The notes below the pieces were generated by a model, which saw nothing but the letters and a program-made list of their open reading frames with translations, was not told the DNA's origin and made no database searches. Below, one piece after another: positions 17,081 to 58,381 of a DNA stretch of 64,000 nucleotides. Within the stretch, counting starts at the first letter, position 1, and each line of letters starts with the position of its first letter. The translations under genes and the position numbers were made by a program. Source of the DNA: Acholoe squamosa (lineage: Eukaryota > Annelida > Polychaeta > Phyllodocida > Polynoidae); NCBI GenBank assembly GCA_949317995.1, contig OX439049.1, positions 186,001 through 250,000 on the forward strand, given 5' to 3'.

Positions 17081-20000
17081 GGTGCACCTTATACACAGGG
17101 TGCACCTTATACAACAGGTGCATCTAATACACAGGGTGCACCTTATATTCAGGGTGCACCTTATACACAGGGTGCACCTTATACACAGGGTGCGCCTTAT
17201 ACACGGGGTGCACCATGCATATAAGGTGCACACCAGCATATAAGCTGCACCCTGTGTATAAGGTGCACCCTGTGTATAAGGTGCACCCTGTGTATAAGGT
17301 GCACACTGTGTATAAGGTGCACCCTGTGTTTAAGGTGCACCCTGTGTATAAGGTGCACCCTGTGTATAAGGTGCACCCCATGTATAAGGTGCACACTGTG
17401 TATAAGGTGCACCCTGTGTATAAGGTGCATCCAGTGTATTAGATGCAACTGTTGTATAAGGTGCACTCTGTGTATAAGGTGCACCCTGTGTATAAGGTGC
17501 ACCCTGTGTATAAGGTGCACCCTGTGTATAAGGTGCACCCTGTGTTTAAGGTGCACCCTGTGTATAAGGTGCACCCTGTGTATAAGGTGCACCCTGTGTG
17601 TAAGGTGCACCCTGTATATAAGGTGCACCCTGTATATAAGGTGCACCCTGTGTATAAGGTGCACCCTGTGTATAAGGTGCACCCTGTATATAAGGTGCAC
17701 CCTGTATATAAGGTGCAGCCTGTGTATAAGGTGCACCCCGTGTATAAGGCGCACCCCGTGTATAAGGCGCACCCTGTGTATAAGGTGCACCCTGTATATA
17801 AGGTGCAGCCTGTGTATAAGGTGCACCCCATGTATAAGGCGCACCCTGTGTATAAGCTGTACCCTGTGTATAAGGTGCACCCTGTGTTTCAGGTGCACCT
17901 GTGTATAAGGTGCACCTTATACACAGGGTGCACCTTATAAATGAGGTGCACCTTATACACGGGGTGCACCATGCATATAAGGTGCACACCAGCATATAAG
18001 ATGCACCCTGTGTATAAGGTGCACCCTGTGTATAAGGTGCACCCTGTGTATAAGGTGCACCCTGTGTATAAGGTGCACCCTGTGTATAAGGTGCACTCTA
18101 TGTATACGGTGCACCCTGTGTGAAAGGGGCACCCTGCATATAAGATGCACCCTGCATATAAGGTGCTCCCTGTGTATAAGGTGCACCCCGTGTATAAGGC
18201 GCACCCTGTGTATAAGCTGCACCCTGTGTATAAGCTGCACCCTGTGTTTCAGGTGCACCCTGTGTATAAGGTGCACCTTATACACAGGGTGCACCTTATA
18301 CACAGGGTGCACCCCTTGTATAAGGTGCACCCCGTGTATAAGGTGCATCCTGTGTATAAGGTTCACCCTGTGTATAAGGTTCACCCTGCATATAAGCTGC
18401 ACCCTCTGTATAAGGTGCACCTTATAAACAGGGTGCACCTTATACATGAGGTGCACCTTATACACAGGGAGCACCTTATATGCAGGGTGCATCTTATATG
18501 CAGGGTGCCCCTTTCACACGGGGTGCACCGTATACATAGAGTGCACCTTATACACAGGGTGCACCTTATACACAGGGTGCACCTTATACACAGGGTACAC
18601 CTTATACACAGGGTGCACCTTATACACAGGGTGCACTTTATACACTGGGTGCACCTTACACACAGGGTGCACCTTATACATGGGGTGCACCTTATACACA
18701 GGGTGCACCTTATACACAGGGTGCACCTTATACACAGAGTGCACCTTATACAACATTTGCATCTAATACACTGGATGCACCTTATACACAGGGTGCACCT
18801 TATACACAGTGTGCACCTTATACATGGGGTGCACCTTATACACAGGGTGCACCTTATACAACAGGTGCATCTAATACACTATATGCACCTTATATACAGA
18901 GTGCATCTTATACAACAGGTGCATCTAATACACTATATGCACCTTATATACAGGGTGCACCTTATACAACAGGTGCATCTAATACACTATATGCACCTTA
19001 TATACATGGTGCACCTTATACAACAGGTGCATCTAATACACTATATGCACCTTATATACAGGGTGCACCTTATACAACAGGTGCATCTAATACACTATAT
19101 GCACCTTATACACAGGGTGCACCTTATACAACAGGTGCATCTAATACACTGGATGCACCTTATATACAGGGTGCACCTTATACACAGGATGCACCTTATA
19201 CACAGGGTGCACCTTATACACAGGGTGCACCTTATACACAGGCTGCACCTTATACACAGGCTGCACCTTATACACAGAGTGCACCTTATACACAGGCTGC
19301 ACCTTATACACAAGGTTCACCTTATACACAGGGTGCACCTTATATACAGGGTGCACCTTATACACAGAATGCACCTTATACACAGGGTGCGCCTTATACA
19401 TGGGGTGCACCTTATACACAGGGTGCACCTTATACACAGGGTGCACCTTATACACAGGGTGCACCTTATACACAGGGTGCACCTTATACACAGGGTGCAC
19501 CTTATATACAGGGTGCACCTTATACACAGGGTGCACCTTATATATAGGCTGCACCTTATACACAGGGTGCACCTTATACACAGGGTGCACCTTATACACA
19601 GGGTGCACCTTATACACAGGATGCACCTTATACACAGGGTGCACCTTATATAAAGGCTGCACCTTATACACAGGGTGCACCTTATACACAGGGTGCACCT
19701 TATACACAGAGTGCACCTTATACAACATTTGCATCTAATACACTGGATGCACCTTATACAAAGGTGCATCTAATACACTGGATGCACCTTATACACAGGG
19801 TGCACCTTATACAACAGGTGCATCTAATACACTATATGCACCTTATATACAGGGTGCACCTTATACACAGAGTGCACCTTATACACAGGGTGCACCTTAT
19901 ACAACAGGTGCATCTAATACACTGGATGCACCTTATATACAGGGTGCACCTTATACACAGGGTGCACCTTATACACAGGCTGCACCTTATATACAGGGTG

Positions 20001-20384
20001 CACCTTATACACAGAATGCACCTTATACACAGGGTGCGCCTTATACACGGGGTGCACCTTATACACAGGGTGCACCTTATACACAGGGTGCACCTTATAC
20101 ACAGGGTTCACCTTATACACAGGGTGCACCTTATACACAGGGTGCACCTTATATACAGGGTGCACCTTATATACAGGGTGCACCTTATACACAGGGTGCA
20201 CCTTATATATAGGCTGCACCTTATACACAGGGTGCACCTTATACACAGGGTGCACCTTATATACAGGGTGCACCTTATACACAGGGTGCACCTTATACAC
20301 AGGGTGCACCTTATATACAGGGTGCACCTTATACACAGGATGCACCTTATATGCATGGTGCACCTTATACACAGGGTGCTTTTT
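17081..20384. repeat. 3.3-kb 18-bp minisatellite with orientation switches
   Basis: About 180 units of GTGTATAAGGTGCACCCT (18 bp) are present. Orientation flips several times: inverse at 17081-17215, direct to about 17900, short alternating blocks to about 18410, then inverse to the end. At the flips the palindrome TATAAGGTGCACCTTATA is formed. At 18850-19150 and 19790-19950 a higher-order 54-bp unit (three monomers including ACAACAGGTGCATCTAATAC) is repeated. Because 18 is divisible by three, long frames on both strands stay open (HLIHRV, KVHPVY, YTGCTL); these are not credible proteins. A few units keep CCCCGTGTATAAGGCGCACC, close to the MITE terminus at 54893. Confidence 0.95.
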
Positions 20385-20670
20385 AAGCATACCCAATAGG
20401 AGTTCGGGCTAATTTTAAAATATACAGAAAGTTCTGAAGGTGATTTTTTAACAGACCACAACTGCACACTTTTGCCAAATTTCCCATAGGAATAGCACAA
20501 TTACCGCTGTATAGCTTGTTGCAATCGCCGGGCCTTGACTGAGAAACGACCGGTTCACTGGCCAACACTTCCACAGTTAACCCATATATTAAACCTTAAT
20601 ACAAGTCATGTCAGGGACAATTTTAAGGCTTTGGAAATGACAATGAATCCTTCTCTGACTTTTTGAAAGA
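20385..20670. other. Unassigned sequence
   Basis: Nothing recognisable lies between the end of the 18-bp array and the 68-bp duplication. Confidence 0.4.
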
Positions 20671-24475: not shown

Positions 24476-25055
24476 TCATGTTATGATGAGGGTTACGCGT
24501 ACCATGGTAGGGTGCAGCATGTAAAAGGTTAATTGGAACATGTTGATAGGGTCATTTATTTTTGTAACCTTGTGGTGGGAGAGTGTTATTATGGTGTAGG
24601 GGTGTGTGTAAACTTTGTCGCCTTTTCTTTTGATCCTTACACCTGAAGGCAAAATTTGTTTATTATTATACAAGTACGGAGCAGTGTCCAGTGCATGATG
24701 CTGGCAAGTTGTGGTAGGAGAATGTTATGATGAGTGGGACTGGAGGTTTCCCCTTTGATCCTAAAACATATGGCACACATGCCATGGCAGGGTGTACCAT
24801 GTAAAAGGCTAATTGGAACATGTTGATAGGTTCATTCATGGAGAATGTTATGATAAACGAACCGGGAAGTAAATTGCGACACCTTGTTTTATTATGCAAA
24901 CAGGGTGTAATCCATAAATTTGAACACGTTAATAATGAAGAGTAAGCCCGGAGGAGGTAAAAGTTACCACCCTTCGTGGTCAAATCTTACACCTGGAGCA
25001 GCAGAGAATGCTGCTTTTGCTGCTGCTGCTGCTGCATGCTCAATGGTGGTGGTGG

Positions 25056-25087
<32 letters not shown>

Positions 25088-25188
25088 CATGCTCAATGGT
25101 GGTGGTGGTGGTGGTGGCGATGCTGCTGCTGCTGTTGCTGCTGTTGCTGCTGCTGCATGCTCAATGGTGGTGGTGGTGGTGGTGGCGA

Positions 25189-25230
<42 letters not shown>

Positions 25231-25460
25231 ATGCTCAATGGGGGTGGGGGTGGTGCTGCTGCTGCTGTTGCTGCTGCTGCTGCATGCTCAATGGTGGTGG
25301 TAGCTGCTGCTGCTGTTGCTGTTGCTGCTGCTGCTGCATACTCAATGGGGGTGGTGCTGTTGCTGTTGCTGCTGCTGCTGCTGCTGCTGCATACTCAATG
25401 GGGGTGGTGCTGTTGCTGTTGCTGCTGCTGCTGCTGCTGCATGCTCAATGGTGGTGGTGG

Positions 25461-25492
<32 letters not shown>

Positions 25493-25629
25493 AATGCTCA
25501 ATGGTGGTGGTGGTGGTGGTGGCGATGCTGCTGCTGCTGCTGCTGCTGCATGCTCAATGGTGGTGGTAGCTGCTGCTGCTGTTGCTGTTGCTGCTGCTGC
25601 TGCTGCATGCTCAATGGTGGTGGTGGTGG

Positions 25630-25665
<36 letters not shown>

Positions 25666-25688
25666 ATGCTCAATGGTGGTGGTGGTGG

Positions 25689-25720
<32 letters not shown>

Positions 25721-25851
25721 CATGCTCAATGGTGGTGGTGGTGGTGGTGGCGATGCTGCTGCTGTTGCTGCTGCTGCTGCATGCTCAATGGTGGTGGTAG
25801 CTGCTGCTGCTGTTGCTGTTGCTGCTGCTGCTGCATACTCAATGGTGGTGG

Positions 25852-25882
<31 letters not shown>

Positions 25883-26990
25883 TGCTCAATGGTGGTGGTC
25901 GTGGTGCTGCTGTTGCTGCTGCTGCTGCTGCTGCATGCTCAATGGTGGTGGTGGTGGTGCTGCTGCTGCTGTTGCTGCTGCTGCATGCTCAATGGTGGTG
26001 GTGGTGGCGCTGCTGCTGCTGCTGCATGCTGGTGGTGGTAGTGGTGCTGCCGCTTTTGATCCTGGAGCATATAGCACAGATGGCATGGACAGCGTGTAAC
26101 GTGTAAACAGGGTGAAAAACTGTTAATTTGAACATGATGATATGGGGGCTTAATGGTGTGATGGTGTGGTGGGAAAATTTATGATGATGATGATGAGTGA
26201 GCCGGGAGGCAGGTGGGAAAATCCATCACTTTTTGTTATGCATCTGTCTTTTTATTGTTCTTGAAGGACAGCAGTCAAACAGGGTGAAAACTAACTACTA
26301 GTTTTCAACATGCTGATGGAAAACGTTTTTAATAACCTTACCATAACCATAGCGTGCAGTACGGAGCTGACACCATAAAGTTGACATACACAGAGGGGTC
26401 GCCATAGAGTTAACATAGAGGCAAAATATGCAGCGTCATAGACTTAACATTGCAAAGGGGTTTTGGTGGAAGAATGTTATGCTTGAGTAGGGCTAAAGGT
26501 AGGGGGTAAAATCAGACGACTGGCTTTGATCCTGGAACACAGGTACCATTGGGTGTGCAGCTGTCTTTTGATTTCCTGGAGCATGTAGCACAGATGGTCG
26601 TGAACAGCTTATAACATGTAAACAACATGTAAACTGCTAATTTGTACATGGTGATTTGCAAAATGCAGGGGTTTATTGTTTTTAACAGTACGGTAAAGAG
26701 AGTGTTATTATGAGTGAGTGAAATGATGCTGTATCACGCCTGGTTAGGCACATGTCTGCTTTTACCACCCTTCATGTTAGCTCAGACATAAAAGCAAAAA
26801 ACCTTTATTATACAAGCACGGACCAGTGTCCAGTGGTGGTTGTTATTGTGGGGGGGGGGGTTGTGGTGGGACTAGAGGTGAGTCTTTTGATCCTGGAGGA
26901 CAGGGCAATGGCAGTGATGCAGCATGCAAACAGGGTGAGGTGTAGACTACTTGTATTAAACATGCTGATTGGAACATTTTTTCAATTGTG
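24476..26990. repeat. Degenerate long-period tandem repeat (~300 bp)
   Basis: A block of the type TTTGATCCT...GCACA..TGGCATGG...GTGTAA..TGTAAA...GGTTAATTGGAACATG recurs diverged at about 24480, 24780, 26050, 26260, 26580 and 26900. Segments such as GTGTTAT(T)ATG lie between them. The units carry no gene. The CTG/GGT array at 25010-26045 lies inside one of them. Confidence 0.55.
25010..26045. repeat. Compound CTG/GTT + GGT minisatellite
   Basis: About 20 variable units alternate a (GCTGCTGTT)n block, the anchor GCATGCTCAATGG, and a (GGT)n block, sometimes with GGCGATG. Unit length varies with triplet number. All frames stay open (poly-Leu, Cys or Ala alternating with HAQWWW, MLNGGG or CSMVVV). 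There is no start context, splice-bounded exon or homologous protein to support coding. It is a likely unstable locus. Confidence 0.93.
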
Positions 26991-32350: not shown

Positions 32351-32982
32351 CGCCTTGCCTTCTCCCCTTGACTCAAAGTTTCAATCGCAAATTTTGCACT
32401 CAAACATGATGTTAAAATGTTATGAAGTGGCCATGTACCGGCATGTACCTATGCACTCCGACCTCCTCTCTTGGCGGCCAAAAGTTGTATGTGTGTAGCT
32501 AAACCGCAGGGAAAAAAACATGACACTGTAAAAGGAGTTCTCTGATTGGCTTATGACGAGAGTAAAAAGAGAAGCGCTCTCTTATTGGTCAAGCGGCGTA
32601 CTATGTACACAAAAAGTGTGACGTCAGAGTTCTTGTGCACATTTTACTTTCGGGTGGACTGTTAAAGAGACAATGAAATTACTAAAATAAAGGTTAGTGT
32701 CGTGTTTTATGTTTGTTCACAGAAATATGACTTTAGAAAAAGATTTTTTTTTCTTTCTAGATGTTCTTATAGGCTTAATTAACCTGTACTGAGCGTTTCT
32801 TAAGAGTGGAAGGTAACATTATTGAGGGCGCTGTAGTGAGTTAGGCTCGCGGCTGACTGATATGTTTCTGGTGCATATGCACTCACAGTCACATAAAGAG
32901 TGAGGGTTGGGTACTGAGTCGGGCCCTGAGTCATCGGGCTGAACGCCTCAATTTTTGATACAATTAATAGGCCCTATATGTT

Positions 32983-33234
32983 TGTAGAGGTCGGCGGAAA
33001 ACATCTTTGGAGAAACCGGGACTCGAACCCGGGACCCTCCAACTTCGAAGCGGAAGCTCTTCCTCTGGACTACTTCCCCAGACCTGACGTTCTCTACCTT
33101 CCACCTACATCTGGATCGGTATGACACAAGGGGGCAGTGTTCACTGGCTGACCAGCCCCTGGGGGCTGGTGCAACCGGGGAACGGGGACAGATAGCATAC
33201 CGCCATGGACTCACAGCCAGAGCTGGCCCCTACA
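32983..33234 (-). repeat. TRIM LTR, copy A (3' LTR)
   Basis: This 252-bp LTR is preceded on the minus strand by the purine-rich tract. It differs from copy B at only a few sites, several of them in the tRNA-like part (TCGAAG/TCAAAG, GGACTA/GAGCTA, CCGGG/CCAGG). Confidence 0.87.
33009..33079 (-). other. tRNA-like gene inside LTR A
   Basis: This is a 71-nt tRNA-like sequence without an encoded CCA. The acceptor stem GGGGAAG/TTTCTCC pairs over 7 bp with G-U wobbles. The A box is TAGTCCAGAGG and the B box GGTTCGAGTCC. The T arm CCGGG/CCCGG is perfect. The D stem has one mismatch here. The anticodon loop TTCGAAG would give CGA, but the last base pair of its stem is broken. A TTTT Pol III terminator lies 7 nt downstream (33001-32998). 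It can probably drive Pol III transcription. Activity as a translating tRNA is doubtful. Confidence 0.7.
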
Positions 33235-33426
33235 CTCCTCCCCACCAGCTTCAGCCAACCCTACTCCTCCAACCCAACCTCCAGCAGGTGACTAGTTTAC
33301 CCCTAGCAGGTTGAAGCGTTAACTGTGTCATACCAGTCCAGGTACCGAGTTCTCTAGTCCCCCCTCACACGGGTCAGGACCAACTCGGTTTCTCCACCAG
33401 TGTAGAGGTCAGCAGAAAACGTCTTT

Positions 33427-33452
33427 GGGTTCGAGTCCCGGTTTCTCCACCA
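33427..33452 (-). other. Primer-binding site of the TRIM
   Basis: On the minus strand the site begins TGGTGGAGAAACCGGGACTC. It is the exact complement of the T arm, acceptor strand and CCA of the same tRNA that is embedded in the LTRs. A second, partial copy of LTR tail plus primer site follows at about 33426-33383, suggesting a template switch. Confidence 0.8.
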
Positions 33453-33453
33453 G

Positions 33454-33705
33454 TGTAGAGGTCGGCGGAAAACGTCTTTGGAGAAACCGGGACTCGAACC
33501 CAGGACCCTCCAACTTCAAAGCGGAAGCTCTTCCTCTGAGCTACTTCCCCAGACCTGACGTTCTCTACCTTCCACCTACATCTGGATCGGTATGACACAA
33601 GGGGGCAGTGTTCACTGGCTGACCAGCCCCTGGGGGCTGGTGCAACCGGGGAACGGGGACAGATAGCATACCGCCATGGACTCACAGCCAGAGCTGGCCC
33701 CTACA
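33454..33705 (-). repeat. TRIM LTR, copy B (5' LTR)
   Basis: This 252-bp LTR is followed on the minus strand by one base and then the primer-binding site. It is outwardly flanked by TGTT. Confidence 0.87.
33480..33550 (-). other. tRNA-like gene inside LTR B
   Basis: Same 71-nt arrangement as in LTR A, but with an intact D stem (GCTC...GAGC). The anticodon loop TTTGAAG would give TGA. One T-stem position is G-U. TTTT follows 8 nt downstream. This copy is the better tRNA fold of the two. Confidence 0.72.
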
Positions 33706-33709
33706 TGTT

Positions 33710-35100
33710 TATAAGACACTGGGATCCGTTGAAGTATATGGAATAGAAGATGACAGTTATAGAAATTGGGGCGGGTGCTTTCTCTGGCCCTTGGTGTGAC
33801 AGTCTTGTCGCCTTTTAGCGAATATCATAAAATGGCCCGTCACAAAAAAGAAAACATGACAACGGTAACACTTTACATAGACAAAAATTACTTTTTATTG
33901 TATATCTGTCCAAAAACCAACAGAAAAATGAAGCTTTACCACATAAGTGTATCACATAACTACGATAAATACATACTTTCATTGAAAGCAATATATAATT
34001 TAATGTGATACAAAAGTGCACACTGATTTATCCCCTCTCCCGAAAAAGTGTGGAATTCGTGATTTTACGGTACCCCATAGATGCAAATTTTGTTACTGAA
34101 TAACCCAACACACTTTACATAGTTAGTTAGAGAAATAAATATGTCAGTAACGCATAAGTTACTCACCCAAAAGAAAGCCTTCACATATGATAAATTTGGC
34201 TATGCCTAATACCTATACCTTATCAGAGCATCACACATTTTACACAAAAAATATCATTTGAAATCACCTGACATCAAGCAACAATAAAGGCCCCCATAAA
34301 TGTGCTACATGATCCTCAACGTGTGACAGTAACATGCAGCACCACTTTAAATACAAAATTAACTTCTTAATACATGTGGAGCCATACATGCTTCAAAAAA
34401 CAAAGGAAAGTGGCCGGTTTCTTACTCCAAACATGTGGGTGTGTCCCATACACATACTTTATCAGTACATCAAACCTCTTTGAATAGTCTCTCCCATTTG
34501 ACTTGGCTATGTAGCATTACATTACACTACAAAACTTCGTGGTGCTGCTGAAACACAATAAACCTATTAAGGTGTACTTCATGTACACTTATAACTTTAA
34601 ACTGTAGGATAAGTGACAGAAGATCGGGCCGAAGAACGCATGCTAATAAAAACATCCGGCCATCCACCCATTTCTATAGCTTCAACTTAATTACCTTCAT
34701 TGGATTGACGATCAGCCTACTAGATTCAAAGAATGACTACTACACCTGCAAATCCACTTTCTTCATCCATATTCTAATCCTACATGAAACAAAAGGTTAG
34801 TTCTGAAAATGATGTGGTTTTCCCTGATACTTACCCTTATCACAACTGTTCTCCTAATTATGTAGGTATCATTTACATTTCTTTTCACATGTCTTTACAA
34901 GTAAAAAATTTGTGAACATTTTAATTTGTTCAGGTGCAAACTTTGCAGCGATACATTCCATAATTATGCGACACCTCATTGATATAAGTTGTTCACTATG
35001 TAGACAACACTTAAGGGCATACACTATAATGTTTTTTTGTTTTCAGACTACATGAAATCATCGTCAGGATCCATGTTTAGAGGCAGACCTGAAGGGCTAC
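33710..35100. other. No recognisable gene
   Basis: AT-rich sequence without convincing frames. It probably lies downstream of, or in the 3' untranslated region of, the minus-strand transposase gene. Confidence 0.4.
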
Positions 35101-37810: not shown

Positions 37811-38003
37811 CTGCAGTGAACAAAAAATTGTTGGCCAAATTGTTTTGCATACTTTTCACATATACTATAAAGTTACATATACAAAAGGCCTTAAGACAGT
37901 ACATTTCGTCTTTTAGACAGCGGCTGTATTATAGAGCAGTAGTTTGCTGTCTGTAAAAAAAATTGTTTATTCATATAGTGCACTATAAAGTATATTGTTT
38001 TAC

Positions 38004-38946
38004 CTTTGCATGCTTCCATGCACCTTCGATTCTGTTTGTGGTACACCGCTCCGTTTCCCCCGTGATTATATTTTGATAATCACATCTGAATGAGTGTTTG
38101 TGAGCTACAGTGAAGTGGTCGTATCCTAACTCTTGGATACCTATGAACCCACTCCAGCAGTCGGTGTACACTCTCATCCCGGGGGCTACATGATTAGTTA
38201 TAATAGGGTGCAGAGTAGAAGATGATCTATTGTCTACTGGGTACAGGATCAAGTTATTTGACTTTCTCTGTACCAAACCCACAACCCATATAGGCCGGCC
38301 TTTTTTAGGATCCCCTTTGTGTGCCTTCACTTTCCTGCCAAATACACTCTCATCGATCTCTACTTCATCACTGAAAATGTCATTCTTGTACAAGTCATGT
38401 ACATATTGCACAAACATGTCTCTTATGAAACTTGCCCACTCTACCGCTGTCCTGTTATAGTTCATCCCACACCAAGAGGACAGTCGCATAAGGGTGCCAT
38501 TTCTCTCAGCATATGATATCAAGAAGAGAAACAAATCTTGTGTCAGAAGATGTGAATGAGAGAAAAGAGAATACTTTCTTATGGAGTGTTCATGTTTACC
38601 TCCTGGCCTGCACCTCCATGAGTACCCATCTAAAGCTGATTCCCTGGTGTTTACCTTGCACTCCTTTCCACATCTGTCTACGTCACACACCATGTGGGTA
38701 GCCAGGAAACCATTATGCCCTAACCATTCTAGAAAGTTGGGGTTAAGATAATCCAGAAGAGCAAATCTGTTGTGTGGATTGACCAGGTCTTCTATGGTGA
38801 TATCTGAAACATTTACAGCCTGCACCCTATTTGCCCATGTGCTTCTTGTGTACACTTTCCTCTTGTATAAGTCTATGTCTAAGTCTGGATCAGGAAAGCC
38901 GTCCTCTGAAGGAAATATATCCCGTGGCCTCCCAACCCACATAGTG
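38004..38946 (-). CDS. Transposase gene exon: ISXO2-like DDE domain
   Basis: Acceptor GTTTTTGCCGACAG, donor AAAG|GTAAAA. A Cys cluster (CDVDRCGKEC...WRC) resembles the N-terminal zinc ribbon of IS1595-type enzymes. The catalytic segments are EIDESVFGR (Asp), YTDCWSGF (Asp) and TNRIEGAW (Glu), with WVVGLVQR and GYDHFTVAHKHSF in their usual places. The frame is open throughout. In bacteria these enzymes move IS1595 elements; Merlin is the eukaryotic branch. All residues expected for catalysis appear present. Confidence 0.82.
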
Positions 38947-39635
38947 CTGTCGGCAAAAACAAAGCAAAAAGTGGTGCCAAGTTCTGACTTGTTGCACTTT
39001 ATAAACATTGAAGGTGCTGGCCCAGGGGCCGCTGCCCCCCTGACTGTCAGTCAGTTCCCGAAGCTGCTGGCGTTAATAAATACACCCTCCCAAGCAACCT
39101 CCCACCCCTAAAGTCTTACCGCCAGTCCCATCCCCCAAACCCCCTCCCTGCTCTCTTAAACTTGAAGCCTTACTGCACTTTAAATCCCCCCCCTCAATTG
39201 GCCTTTTCCTTTCAAAGCATGCATGTATAGGTAGTGGCCTAGCAGAGAGGGCCCCTTCTACAGCAATATGGTGTGCACTTTTATTTTCTTTCCTTACCCT
39301 TACATGAAAGGAGAAACAAAAAAGTTGGCCCTAAAATTCTTATACCACACTGTAAAGTACTGCACGTAGGGTCACAATAATTACCAAGGACTGGATCTTT
39401 TCCAGTCCCTGCTCTATATTGTGACCCGCTGTGCACACTCCCACAGGCAGTGAAAGAGATATATCCCTTCTGCCTCCTATATGTTTCTCATATACCCCTG
39501 GGGTCGTCTGGTACTATCCCTCTAACCAACGTTAGCCCCATACATGAAATACAGTGTGTGCGCCTATCTCTCACACCTGAAACATACACAATCTGACATA
39601 TAATAGAAGATAAAATATATGAATATTTTACTTAC

Positions 39636-42106: not shown

Positions 42107-45100
42107 CCCATCCCCACTGGGAGGGAGACAGTGGTATATACCCGTATCTGTGGAAGGCCGGGGGTAAATGCTTGCACGGCCGACGGAAGCAGTATGAGAA
42201 CTTTTAGGAGGACTTTTATGCCTATCCGGATAGGAGGCAAAGAATTTGTTCTTTCGCCGACTATAGCAGAGGTTAGTGACGATGGAATCCTCGGTCTGGA
42301 TTTTGCAAGCCTATATGGGGCCATTTTGGATCCACGGGATGGAATGATGAGTATCCGGAACCCTTATGGCTTGCATGTACAATGCGTGTTGAGACAAGTG
42401 TCTTCAGTAGCTTCGGTTATACATACGGTGAAAATCCCTCCGGGTACAACTTGTGAGGTCCTTTGCGGCCGATCAATGGCCCAGAAGGGTGAGACAGGCG
42501 TCTACGAACCCGATACGATACATTTATCAAGCATCAGGTTGGACTCAGTGGATACGTTGGTGGCGAATGCAGCATGGTCTGTATTACCCATGACTAACCG
42601 AACCGGTTCAGTGATTTATTTGAAACGTGGCAACAGTGTTGGGGTGATGAGTTTGGTAGAACACGTTGCCGAGGCCAAGTTTAATAAACCATTGAACCCC
42701 GTTAGTAAGCATCAATTGGATGAAGAATTTCAGAAACTGATTGATAAATCAGATTTACAGAATACAGAGCATAAATGGCACCTAGGGGACCTCCTGCGAA
42801 GGTATGAGGATGCTTTCGGCAGGGAGGGAGGACCCGTAGGTAGAACCGATAAGGTGTTGCACACTATCGATGTGCGTGACGAGAGACCTTTTAAAATACC
42901 GTATCATAGACTTCCTCTCAAGAAGAAGTTGATATGTGAAAAGGAAATACAAAAGCAGCTGGAGTTAGGGGTAATCATGCCGAGCTCGAGCCCCTGGTCC
43001 AGCCATGTTTGTATGACCACAAAGAAAGACGGTACATTCCGTTTCTGTGTCGACTACCGGAAACTGAACAAAGAAGAACTTGTATCCCCTACCAAGGATT
43101 GACGAGACTTTAGAGAGCTTGGGTGGGAACCAATGGTTCTGCACCCTGGATTTACAGTCCGGGTATTGGCAGATACCAATGCATCCCAAGGACATAGAGA
43201 AAACTGCGTTCTCTAGCCATTTGGGATTATTCGAGTATAATGTCTTGCCTTTCGGATTGTGTAATGCGCCCGCTACGTTTGAGGCTATGATGGAATCTCT
43301 ACTCAGCGACCTGCTGTGGAAGAAGTGTCTGGTTTACTGGGATGATGTCGTCATGTTTGGCAAGTCAATTCAGGAGTGTCACACGAACCTATAGCTGGTC
43401 CTGGATAGGATTCTAGCCAATGGCCAAAAACTCAAGCCTAAGAAATGTAATCTGTTTAAGAAAATAATTACATAACTGGGAAGGATCATTACCCCCAACG
43501 GGGTAAGTGCAGATCCGGAGAAGCTTGAGGCGGTGGAAAGTTGGGAAAGACCCCAAGTGCTAAGGAGGTTAGGTCATTTTTAGGATTTTGCTCCTATTAC
43601 CGTGATTTTATACCGAATTACTCTCGTGTAAGTTTTCCCATGCAATGCTTAGCTCATTGGACACCAGGTAGGGCTTGGGAACCCTTCTCATGGACCAGCG
43701 AGCAAGAAGAATCTTTTAATAAGATAAAAGATTGATTTAGAAACACACCTGTATTGAAATATCCCACTCCCGAAGGGCATTTCATACTAGACACCGATGC
43801 GAGCAATGATGCTATAGGGGCAGCACTCTCTCAGGTCCAGAATGGAGTTGAAGTCCCATTAGCATTCGCTAGCAACACGCTAAGCAAAACCCAGCGTAAT
43901 TATTGTACCACTAAAAGAGAACTTCTCGCTGTTGTGGTGTATATGAAGAAGTTTAAGCATTTCCTGTAGGGAACTGACTTCACTTTGCGTACTGACCATT
44001 CGTCTCTAAGGTGGCTTCTGAATCCGAGGGGATGATTGGAAGATGGTTGGCTCACTTATCCGAGTTTGGATTAGAGCATAAGCAGATCGAGCACCGTCCG
44101 GGTGCAAAGCATATAAATGCAGATGCCTTATCAGGACGGCCAGTCCGAAAGTGCCAAAATGCCACTTGTGAAGACTGCGAGGCCCATAATGCTGTGGTCG
44201 CCAGGTTGGTATATAACTATACCACCCCCCTGTAGCTATCTCAATTGGTCCCCGGAGACCATCAAGAAGTTTCAACAGTCAGATCCCACCACTGCACGCA
44301 TCTTGGAATACTTGCGGAAAGGTATTAAGCCGGTAAGGCCAATGTTATCTCTGGAAGACAGAGAAACGAGACGATTGATAGCTCAATGGACCGAGCTGGA
44401 GATCCGAGATGGCATATTGTGTAGATGGAAGACTACTTCCACCGGCAATAAGCTATTGCAAATAGTAATTCCCACCTCGATGAGAAGGGATATCATGTAT
44501 TATTGTCATGGACACCAAACAAGTGGCCATTTTGGGAAGAAAAGATCCATAGAATGTCTGCAAAGACGATATTACTGGCCAGGAATGAGGAGCGAACTAC
44601 TTCTGTGGATTGCAACTTGCCCTGATTGTTGTAAAAACAAGCCAGGACCCGGCCTAGGCAAGCTACCCTCGTCCCAGGAATTGTTTGGTGTCAGATTTGC
44701 TCGAGTAGCAATTGACATCATTAGTGGGTTTAAAACGACGCGCAGAGAGAATACTTGTATGATGGTCGTCACAGACTACTATACTAAGTACACTCGGGTG
44801 TTTCCTCTTCCAAATCACAAAGCAACTACATGTGCCGAAGCATTTGTAAAAGGCTGGGTGCTACTTTTGGGCATACCCCTCATGATGCACAGTGATCAAG
44901 GTAGAGAGTTTGAGTCAGAGTTATGGCAGGAAATGTGCCATTACTTAGCAATATGTAAGAAAAAATGGACTTTGATACAAGTACTGAAGCCCCTGGTTAA
45001 TAGCCACCAGGATGACTGGGATGAACAGTGCGAGTTTGTAGTACACGCCTACAACAACACTGTCCATTCATCCACTAATTGCACCCCAAACCTTTTGGTG

Positions 45101-45727
45101 TTCGGTGAGGTTATAATTATGCCCGCCGACTTGGTATACGGAGTGGTCAGAATAGACCCAGAGGCTCCTGCACTGGTTGTTTGTGGAGTCATAACGGGAT
45201 AGGTTCAAGCATGCATGCGAGGCCGTTGGTAAAGAGCTGCTGAAAAGTGCTAAATGGCAGAAGGTGGGGTATGATACCAATGCAAGAAGGATACCTTTTT
45301 GAAAGTAGGGGAAAAGGTACTAAGGTATTACGAGCCACTCGAACGTTTGAAGCTCGTAACACCCTGGGAGGGTCCGTTTAAGGTTGTACGCATCATCTCT
45401 GAGTCAACGGTGATGGTGGAAGACTGCTACACTGGTAGAAGGTGGACGACCAATGTAGGAAAGCTCAGGCCCTGGAAGGGACGCGAAGCGGCCGAGAGGG
45501 AGTTCGGATACCAACCCCCGAGGCCAACTATAAGTAGGCCTAGTGTTGCGGTACCCAAGAAACGCCCTAGAGGTCGGCCTAGGAAGCATCCAGAGGCGAC
45601 GGGTCGGAAATGGCCTAATCGTAAGAAATGGAAAAATGTCTTGCTGAGTGAAGTAATTACATATGGGAAGGGCCCCGCCGTGGCTACATGGGACTCGTAT
45701 GTAAAGCCGGGAGAAATAAAATGCTGA
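42107..45727 (+). pseudogene. Gypsy-1 pol (truncated protease, RT, RNase H, integrase)
   Basis: Ty3/Gypsy-type pol. It begins inside the protease, without the DSG/DTG active site but with the DGILGLDF strand. Reverse transcriptase follows with FCVDYRKLN, YPLPRIDE, LDLQSGYWQ and a YWDD site (usual YLDD/YIDD). RNase H (DTDASN, KRELLAV, RTDHSSLRW) comes next. Integrase has HGHQTSGHFG and CPDCC, core AIDIIS and HSDQGREFE. A deletion near 44970-45000 removes the segment with the catalytic Glu. The GPF module (TPWEGPFKVV) and an AT-hook-like KRPRGRPRKHP tail close it. Several stops and frame changes (about 43080, 43394, 43470, 43735, 43968, 44235, 45202). gag and the 5' LTR are missing. Inactive. 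Confidence 0.88.
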
Positions 45728-56339: not shown

Positions 56340-58381
56340 ACAGCAGTAGGGGCTACCAGTACAGGAATAGGCATCCACTATAGGAGCTACCAGTACAGAA
56401 ATCTACAATAGGATCTGCCAGTACAGAAACAGGCATCCACAATAGGAGCTACCAGTACAGAAATAGGAATCTACAATGGGAGCTACCAGTACAGAAATAG
56501 GAATCTACAATGGGAGCTACCAGTACAGAAAAAGGCATCCACTATAGGAGCTAGCGGTACAGAAATAGGCATCCACAATAGGAGCTACCAGTACAGAAAC
56601 AGGCATCCACAATAGGAGCTACCAGTACAGAAATAGGAATCCACAATAGGAGCTACCAGTACAGAAATAGGAATCTACAATGGGAGCTACCAGTACAGAA
56701 ATAGGCATCCACTATAGGATCTACCAGTACAGAAAAAGGCATCCACTATAGGAGCAAGCGGTACAGAAATAGGCATCCACTATAGGAGAAGGGGCTACCA
56801 GTACAGAAATAGGCATCCACTACAGGAACTACCAGTACAGAAATAGGCATTCACTATAGGAGCTACCAGTACAGAAATAGGCATCCACTATAGGAGCTAC
56901 CAGTACAGAAATAGGCATCCACTATAGGAGCTATCGGTACAGAAATAGGCATCAACTATAGGAGCTAAAAGTACAGAAATAGGCATCCACTATAGGGGCT
57001 ACCAGTACAGAAATAGGCATCCACTATAGGAGGAGGGGCTACCAGTACAGAAATAGGCATCCACTATGGGAGCTACCAGTACAGAAATAGGCAGCCACTA
57101 TAGGAGCTAACAGTACAGAAATAGGCATCCACTATAGGAGCTAACAGTACAGAAATGTGCATCAACTAAAGGAGGAGGAGCTACTAGTACAGAAATAGGC
57201 ATCCACTATAGGCGCTTCCAGTACAGAAATAGGCATCCACTATGAGAGCTACCAGTACAGAAATAGGCATCCACTATAGGGGCTACCTGTACAGAAATAG
57301 GCATCCACTATAGGAGGAGGGGCTACCAGTACAGAAATAGGCATCCACTATGGGAGCTACCAGTACAGAAATAGGCAGCCACTATAGGAGCTAACAGTAC
57401 AGAAATAGGCATCCACTATAGGAGCTAACAGTACAGAAATGTGCATCAACTAAAGGAGGAGGAGCTACCAGTACAGAAATAGGCATCCACTATAGGCGCT
57501 ACCAGTACAGAAATAGGCATCCACTATGAGAGCTACCAGTACAGAAATAGGCATCCACTATAGGAGCTACCTGTACAGAAATAGGCATCCACTATAGGTG
57601 CTACCTGTACAGAAATAGGCATCCACTATAGGGGGTACCAGTACAGAAATAGGCATCCACTATAGGGGTTACCAGTACAGAAATAGGCATCCACTATAGG
57701 GGCTACCTGTACAGAAATAGGCATCCACTATAGGGGCTACCTGTACAGAAATAGGCATCCCCCATAGGAGCTACCAGTACAGAAATAGGCATCCACTATA
57801 GGAGCTACCAGTACAGAAATAGGCATCCACTGTAGGGTAGGGGCTACCAGTACAGAAATAGGCATCCACTATAGGAGGAGGTGCTACCAGTACAGAAATG
57901 GACATCCACTATAGGGGCTACCTGTACAGAAATAGGCATCCACTATAGGGGCTACTTGTACAGAAATAAGCATCCACTATAGGAGCTACCAGTACAGAAA
58001 TAGGCATCCACTATAGGGGAGGGGCTACCGGTAAAGAAATAGGCATCCACTATAGGGGAGGGGCTACCATTACAGAAATAGGCATCCACTATAGGAGCTA
58101 CCTGTACTGAAATAGGCATCCACTATAGGGGCTACCTGTGCAGAATTAGGCATCCACTGTAGGAGCTACTAGTACAGAAATAGGCATCCACTATAGGAGC
58201 TACCAGTACAGAAATAGGCATCCACTATAGGAGCTACCAGTACAGAAATAGGCATCCACTATAGGAGGAGGGGATACCAGTACAGAAATAGGCATCCATT
58301 ATAGGAGATACCAGTACAGAAATAGGCATCCACTATGGGAGGAGGGGCTACCAGTACAGAAATAGGCATCCAGTATAGGAG
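56340..58381. repeat. 34-bp minisatellite (~58 copies)
   Basis: The unit is CTACCAGTACAGAAATAGGC then ATCCACTATAGGAG (34 bp). Variants include a GGAGGGG insertion, CTACCTG for CTACCAG, and AATCTACAATGG. A higher-order segment of about 290 bp is repeated near 57000-57290 and 57290-57580, including the unusual GTGCATCAACTAAAGG unit. The right end is cut by the Gypsy-2 LTR. Confidence 0.95.

Follow-up and report, generated by a model that had tools for sequence, protein, structure and literature searches.

When a small LTR retrotransposon carries a tRNA-like sequence within its own LTRs, can this sequence provide the primer for the element's own reverse transcription? To start DNA synthesis, LTR retroelements are thought to need a tRNA supplied by the host, a few of them using the end of their own mRNA instead. 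The question is raised by a small LTR retrotransposon (TRIM) of 723 bp in total, found with its target site duplications (TSDs) on the minus strand at positions 32979–33709 of the window, i.e., the whole stretch of 64,000 nucleotides that was analysed. Its features, including the primer-binding site (PBS) and the polypurine tract (PPT), are the following:

32979..32982, no strand: target site duplication copy 1, TGTT (sequence)
32983..33234, minus strand: 3' LTR, 252 bp (direct repeat, 98% identical to the 5' LTR)
33008..33079, minus strand: tRNA-like gene in the 3' LTR (Rfam RF00005, 39.1 bits; ARAGORN; boxes by eye)
33235..33246, minus strand: PPT GGTGGGGAGGAG, adjoining the 3' LTR (sequence; same tract in sister LTR-internal-LTR units)
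33384..33399, minus strand: ordinary family PBS TGGTGGAGAAACCGAG (same 16-mer at 1402 genomic sites)
33401..33426, minus strand: 26-nt fragment repeating the 3' end of the LTR (AAAGACGTTTTC..CTACA), within this copy's 53-bp insertion (repeat, without counterpart in the 166/167-bp internal regions)
33427..33452, minus strand: extended PBS, 26 nt complementary to the 3' end of the LTR tRNA plus CCA (sequence comparison)
33454..33705, minus strand: 5' LTR, 252 bp (direct repeat)
33479..33550, minus strand: tRNA-like gene in the 5' LTR, with a G3-U70 acceptor and a TTTT terminator 6 nt downstream (Rfam RF00005, 48.9 bits; ARAGORN)
33706..33709, no strand: target site duplication copy 2, TGTT (sequence)

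The initial annotation had described a TRIM with two 252-bp LTRs ending in TG...CA, a TGTT duplication and a PPT, and this description is borne out by the 98% identity of the repeats, the flanking TGTT and the sequence itself. Read on the minus strand, the LTRs run TGTAGG...CTACA with five differences between them, and the TGTT duplication, AACA in the orientation of the element, is a 4-bp TSD. Each LTR contains a 72-nt tRNA-like sequence, followed by 25 nt that include TTTT and end in CTACA, the PBS being located one base further on. No ORF of at least 120 aa overlaps the TRIM in the window.

Elsewhere in the window, a transposase-like ORF lies at 37983–39050 on the minus strand; its 30 protein relatives carry PF12762 (IS1595/ISXO2 type), and the named ones include two bivalves (Saccostrea and Ylistrum) and a Candidatus Thiodiazotropha MAG. 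For a second protein of the window, the animal relatives with names are bivalves as well (Pinctada and Mytilus). Long tandem repeat arrays are present at 17197–20500 and 56347–58381, the first of which is open in several frames on both strands, and a trinucleotide-type repeat tract at 24911–26099 gives runs of Ala, Leu, Cys and Trp in several plus-strand ORFs.

The tRNA-like sequence in both LTRs, with its A and B boxes and nearby TTTT, had also been noticed from the letters alone, and was confirmed by ARAGORN and Rfam. Both copies align over the full length of RF00005 (48.9 and 39.1 bits, for a cut-off of 29), and in the 3' LTR the A box TAGTCCAGAGG and the B box GGTTCGAGTCC, recognized by eye, are followed by AAGATGTTTTC. 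ARAGORN called them, on the minus strand, Ser-CGA at 33007–33080 (3' LTR) and Ser-TGA at 33478–33551 (5' LTR). The variable region is 5 nt long and the long variable arm of canonical tRNA-Ser is missing, which speaks against a genuine tRNA-Ser identity, called from the anticodon only. Of 46 distinct tRNA-like sequences, 45 have G-U at pair 3-70 and one has A-U, and a G3-U70 pair is the recognition mark of tRNA-Ala. The LTR tRNA sequence looks Ala-like and the "Ser" call is doubtful. Two observations count against this tRNA as a primer: the anticodon-stem pair 31-39 is not formed in 45 of the 46 distinct sequences, and the folding of five single tRNA-like sequences gave no cloverleaf minimum and weak z-scores. 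In these stem-pair counts, conservation of the 3' end is partly built in, the sequences having been picked by A- and B-box patterns and many of them via the acceptor motif. As a practical consequence, tRNA predictors will report many such LTRs as tRNA genes.

A search of the 1.48-Gb assembly with the element returned 51 matches (40 of 3177 candidates scored). The first 41 loci of the score list contained 42 distinct LTR-internal-LTR units, set out in 45 rows in which the window and two units of L004/L039 are each counted twice. The internal regions measure 166–167 bp in all units except that of the window (219 bp), and sister copies total about 670 bp. The initial annotation had suggested looking for other genomic copies, and LTR-bounded copies were found, with a 4-bp TSD in 28 of the 42 distinct units, the inner junctions of tandem arrays being without TSD by construction; the TSD sequences differ between loci. 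Besides, the two LTRs are identical in 14 of the 42 distinct units, which come from loci at the top of the score list, and eight scattered copies tie at the top score after the window's own copy. Because of these identical pairs and tied copies, recent activity of the family can be concluded: the TRIM family is real and recently active.

The family is not alone. The pattern GGTTCRANNCCNGGTTTCTCCAB occurs at 1995 genomic sites (control 0), and 30 loci cut out of these sites were, by eye, LTRs or rearranged LTR pieces. At twenty further places, families with other internal regions share the PBS core TGGTGGAGAAACCGAG, followed by TTGG, TGGTCC or CATCC; some sister-family copies have point changes in this core, which occurs at 1402 sites genome-wide (control 0). 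The TRIM of the window is one of a large set of families in its genome. Three full-length elements with intact 4-bp TSDs (L037, L038 and L040) have two LTRs from different subfamilies, with 53 differences by position in L037, and became mosaic at or after insertion. LTR-internal-LTR units also form tandem arrays at L004/L039, L019, L034–L036 and L041, some of which mix LTR types.

The existence of LTR-internal-LTR-internal-LTR arrays, as in L004 and L019, is what a tandem duplication of tRNA genes, or a tRNA SINE, would offer as an account of the repeats in the absence of LTR retrotransposition. This explanation has a negligible probability in view of the PBS, the PPT, the TG..CA ends and the 4-bp TSDs that differ by locus, the arrays L004 and L019 being themselves flanked by TSDs (CACT and CTAG). 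The TSDs refute tandem tRNA duplication, and a SINE identity is ruled out by the LTRs, PBS and PPT.

The PBS was then compared with the LTR tRNA across the family. One nucleotide after the LTR, the PBS begins with TGG, the complement of a CCA that the LTR does not encode, and its next 11 nt are complementary to the end of the LTR tRNA. The match between the LTR tRNA and the element's own PBS, CCA included, had been proposed for the window copy and holds in the family, where its length is 14 nt in 40 of the 45 rows, 27 by script in two (the window, twice), 13 in one and 7 in two. The two 7-nt rows correspond to the mosaic array L004/L039, in which a TGTTTCC-type 5' LTR stands beside a GGAGAAA PBS. 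Chance gives less: shuffling the first 60 internal bases of L002, an ordinary copy, 20,000 times never produced a match longer than 11 nt, against 14 in the family. The 26-nt primer site claimed for the window is present (33452–33427) and, among the 41 top-scoring loci, is peculiar to this copy; as a family PBS it was rejected, 14 nt being the rule and the window alone among these loci having the insertion. These 53 extra bp consist of the 26-nt second PBS, the 26-nt LTR-end fragment and one spacer base, and precede the ordinary PBS.

Past position 14, the usual PBS reads ..CCGAG and not ..CCGGG. These positions lack complementarity to the LTR tRNA; at the first two of them (AG), no covariation was seen in the PBSs read. 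The mismatch is counted against the LTR tRNA as primer, and speaks for an explanation in which the element is a Helenus-type TRIM, the LTR tRNA acts only as a Pol III promoter, and each family takes as its primer a host tRNA of equal 3' end, from which the LTR tRNA once derived. In the passages considered here, Kojima (2024; PMC10886601) infers host tRNAs as primers of Helenus and proposes that the LTR tRNA came from an inserted SINE.

LTR tRNAs are not the same in all families, and PBS sequences can thus reveal where the primer came from, with no need for biochemistry. The pattern GGTTCRANNCCNGGNVNNNCCAN{2,4}ACRTTTTC identified 736 sites whose acceptor ends are different (control 0), mainly TGTCTCC, TGTTTCC and TATCTCC among the 100 sites listed. 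Twenty of these sites, mainly belonging to listed pairs, were fetched. A PBS was present at 16 of them and agreed with the LTR tRNA at all of the first 13 positions in 11 cases. In the other five, the PBS has one mismatch to its own LTR tRNA (L157, L161 and L166) or two (L156 and L171). A pattern that permitted both matched and mixed acceptor/PBS types gave 1449 LTR-PBS pairs (control 0), and the 36 with letters shown comprised 30 TTTCTCC/GGAGAAA, five TGTCTCC/GGAGACA, one TGTTTCC/GGAAACA and no mixed pair. Genome-wide, there are 181 TGTCTCC/GGAGACA pairs, and nine TTTCTCC LTRs adjoin a PBS that differs at the covarying base. Sampling of the TGTTTCC type is sparse, consisting of that one site of the 36 and of L155, and TATCTCC has one PBS example, which is damaged (L156).

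To accommodate these data, priming by the host would need several host tRNAs, with 3' ends CGGTTTCTCCA, CGGTGTCTCCA and CGGTGTTTCCA, since two well-sampled acceptor types, and a third at two sites, match their own PBS. A CTCGGTTTCTCCA end fitting the full 16-nt PBS core was found at 26 genomic sites, all of them with T-loop sequences that are seen in LTRs. Among 20 such sites fetched, 19 have the LTR-end TTTTC within 12 nt (L142 being the exception), and L139 has no tRNA body. Taken with the allele agreement reported below, these observations make a host primer unlikely. Two pattern counts carry no weight in this respect: a host-tRNA pattern with a perfect GGAGAAR/YTTCTCC acceptor gave 0 sites, as did its positive control, a conserved tRNA-Lys pattern of the same form, and a pattern for the 5' end of a host tRNA gave 524 sites against 225 in the control, the 100 listed being mostly one non-tRNA repeat.

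During plus-strand synthesis, the primer tRNA is normally copied to 18 nt, m1A58 stopping the enzyme. Copies of this kind were sought with the pattern TGGTGGAGAAACCGGGA, which detected 42 sites (control 0) with a PBS extended by antisense LTR-type tRNA sequence. All of them were read (30 loci, 11 loci and the window), the 26-nt match of the window being one of them. The antisense tRNA is complete at 20 of the 42 sites, most of which continue into antisense U3 and some into antisense PPT and internal sequence. At the other 22, the match spans 18–21 nt in 15 and at least 23 nt in seven, with the best allele taken, a base or two possibly matching by chance and a pattern floor of 17 nt; this set includes L123, a palindrome with a deletion, and among the matches of 18–21 nt are those of L106 and L128, which differ from their own LTR at the 18th base, and of L103, which stands outside an ordinary LTR context. 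In L094, L095 and L124, TGGTGGAGAAACCGGGAC is followed by TCCTAACG, whereas the sister family has TGGTGGAGAAACCGAGCA before the same TCCTAACG; this in-register replacement of the PBS fits 18 nt.

Base 59, which is G, C or T according to the LTR type, indicates which tRNA was copied. The copy has the allele of the adjoining LTR at 32 of 37 readable sites: 18 of the 20 readable among the 22 sites that lack a complete antisense tRNA, and 14 of the 17 readable among the 20 that have one. L096, L097, L108, L106 and L128 disagree, and the base was unreadable by script at L103, L104, L109, L116 and L117; extended copies of the same lineage (L114/L127/L130 and L094/L124) are not independent. It is this 32/37 agreement with the adjoining LTR that weighs against a host tRNA. 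Counted against the LTR tRNA as primer, most copies are without a fresh tRNA imprint (1402 PBS-core sites vs. 42 extended). At L116, a long open YLDD frame is joined directly to a piece of LTR with PBS and antisense tRNA, altogether 38 nt. This frame is gypsy-like pol and resembles window ORFs at 42107–45727, and the junction hints at a possible trace of a helper.

The same extensions could have another source. The PBS and the antisense LTR tRNA share 11 nt, and template switching or gene conversion between them might keep the two matched and yield the extensions as an inverted-repeat by-product unrelated to priming. Annealing to LTR RNA, followed by extension, is another route open to a plus strand whose end lies in the PBS. 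Most of the 20 sites with a complete antisense tRNA are palindromic LTR pairs. The palindromes of L108 and L115 end at an LTR terminus with 4-bp TSDs (CCTA and CATT), from which it follows that palindromic cDNA was integrated. Such switching leaves unexplained why the PBS starts with the complement of a CCA that is not encoded in the LTR, and why many copies end at 18–21 nt; we regard it as improbable.

These comparisons show, at the level of sequence, that PBS and LTR tRNA are matched, vary together between sister families and were joined in cDNA. The best reading, with a probability of about 65%, is that the LTR-encoded tRNA would prime reverse transcription and that the element would carry its own primer gene. 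The suggestion of the initial annotation that the RNA is "possibly self-priming" gains support from the covariation and from the PBSs that contain copies of LTR-type tRNA. Its proposal that primer read-through gave rise to the LTR tRNA was not upheld: the read-through-like copies lie antisense and downstream of the LTR, not sense inside it. In a further model, which we consider fairly probable, these TRIMs may carry their own primer gene, the CCA-tailed LTR tRNA priming on the PBS, and PBS and tRNA may evolve as a pair.

According to this model, the LTR tRNA, in which boxes and TTTT are present, would be transcribed by Pol III and matured by RNase P/Z and the CCA enzyme. The mature tRNA would anneal to the PBS and prime the minus strand, a Ty3/gypsy reverse transcriptase being supplied in trans. 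The plus strand would then copy the primer tRNA, over about 18 nt up to m1A58 and sometimes as a whole, which would keep PBS and LTR tRNA matched. In the boldest form of the model, the genomic RNA would itself supply the primer as its 3' end, produced by cleavage at the LTR tRNA and then given a CCA tail, and copying through such a primer would give the palindromes seen, made of antisense tRNA, then antisense U3 and, in some, PPT and internal sequence. If true, an element with its own primer tRNA would escape dependence on host tRNA, and it would account for the upkeep of a functional PBS in a Pol III TRIM.

How do these elements compare with known systems? The plant Cassandra elements are likewise TRIMs whose LTR houses a gene for a small RNA, Pol III promoter included; the gene is 5S rRNA in Cassandra and a tRNA here. 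The Cassandra 5S sequence is not known to be a tRNA-type primer. Rfam matches in 32600–34100 (E up to 1) include tRNA and no 5S rRNA, and a Cassandra identity is ruled out, the LTR having no 5S. Tf1 primes with the 5' end of its own mRNA. In such self-priming elements the primer comes from the element itself, as proposed here, where the candidate is a CCA-tailed, LTR-encoded tRNA. The bivalve biv-TRIM (PMC6934838) is likewise short, with repeats of 202–218 bp, but no canonical PBS was identifiable in it, and the passages of that paper considered here describe no tRNA gene in the repeats.

The closest relative is not Cassandra, the parallel first drawn for this locus, but Helenus. From the parts of Kojima (2024; PMC10886601) used here, Helenus elements are TRIMs with tRNA-derived LTR sequence in fungi, animals and Selaginella, and these elements, also termed TRIMp3, have two LTRs, a total length of 311–1263 bp and no proteins. 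They share with the TRIM of the window the two LTRs, the tRNA-like sequence with A and B boxes, the PBS after the 5' LTR, the PPT before the 3' LTR and, in animal Helenus, the 4-bp TSD. The likeness extends, in the same parts of that paper, to an inferred Ty3/gypsy helper in animals, tandem arrays in one family and disagreement on tRNA isotype in many families. Judged by title and abstract opening, the literature searched describes no LTR-encoded primer tRNA; the one statement found, in the passages of Kojima (2024; PMC10886601) considered, is negative, reporting no complementarity between LTR tRNA and PBS and concluding that the LTR tRNA has no part in initiation. Unlike Helenus as reported there, the present families have a 14-nt complementarity between LTR tRNA and PBS that covaries between sister families, together with tRNA-imprinted PBS copies. 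The match revises this one published statement found on LTR tRNAs as primers, which had dismissed them. On the basis of these passages (PMC10886601), the present families are an exception within Helenus/TRIMp3: the kind of element is known, and the match between PBS and LTR tRNA is its new feature.
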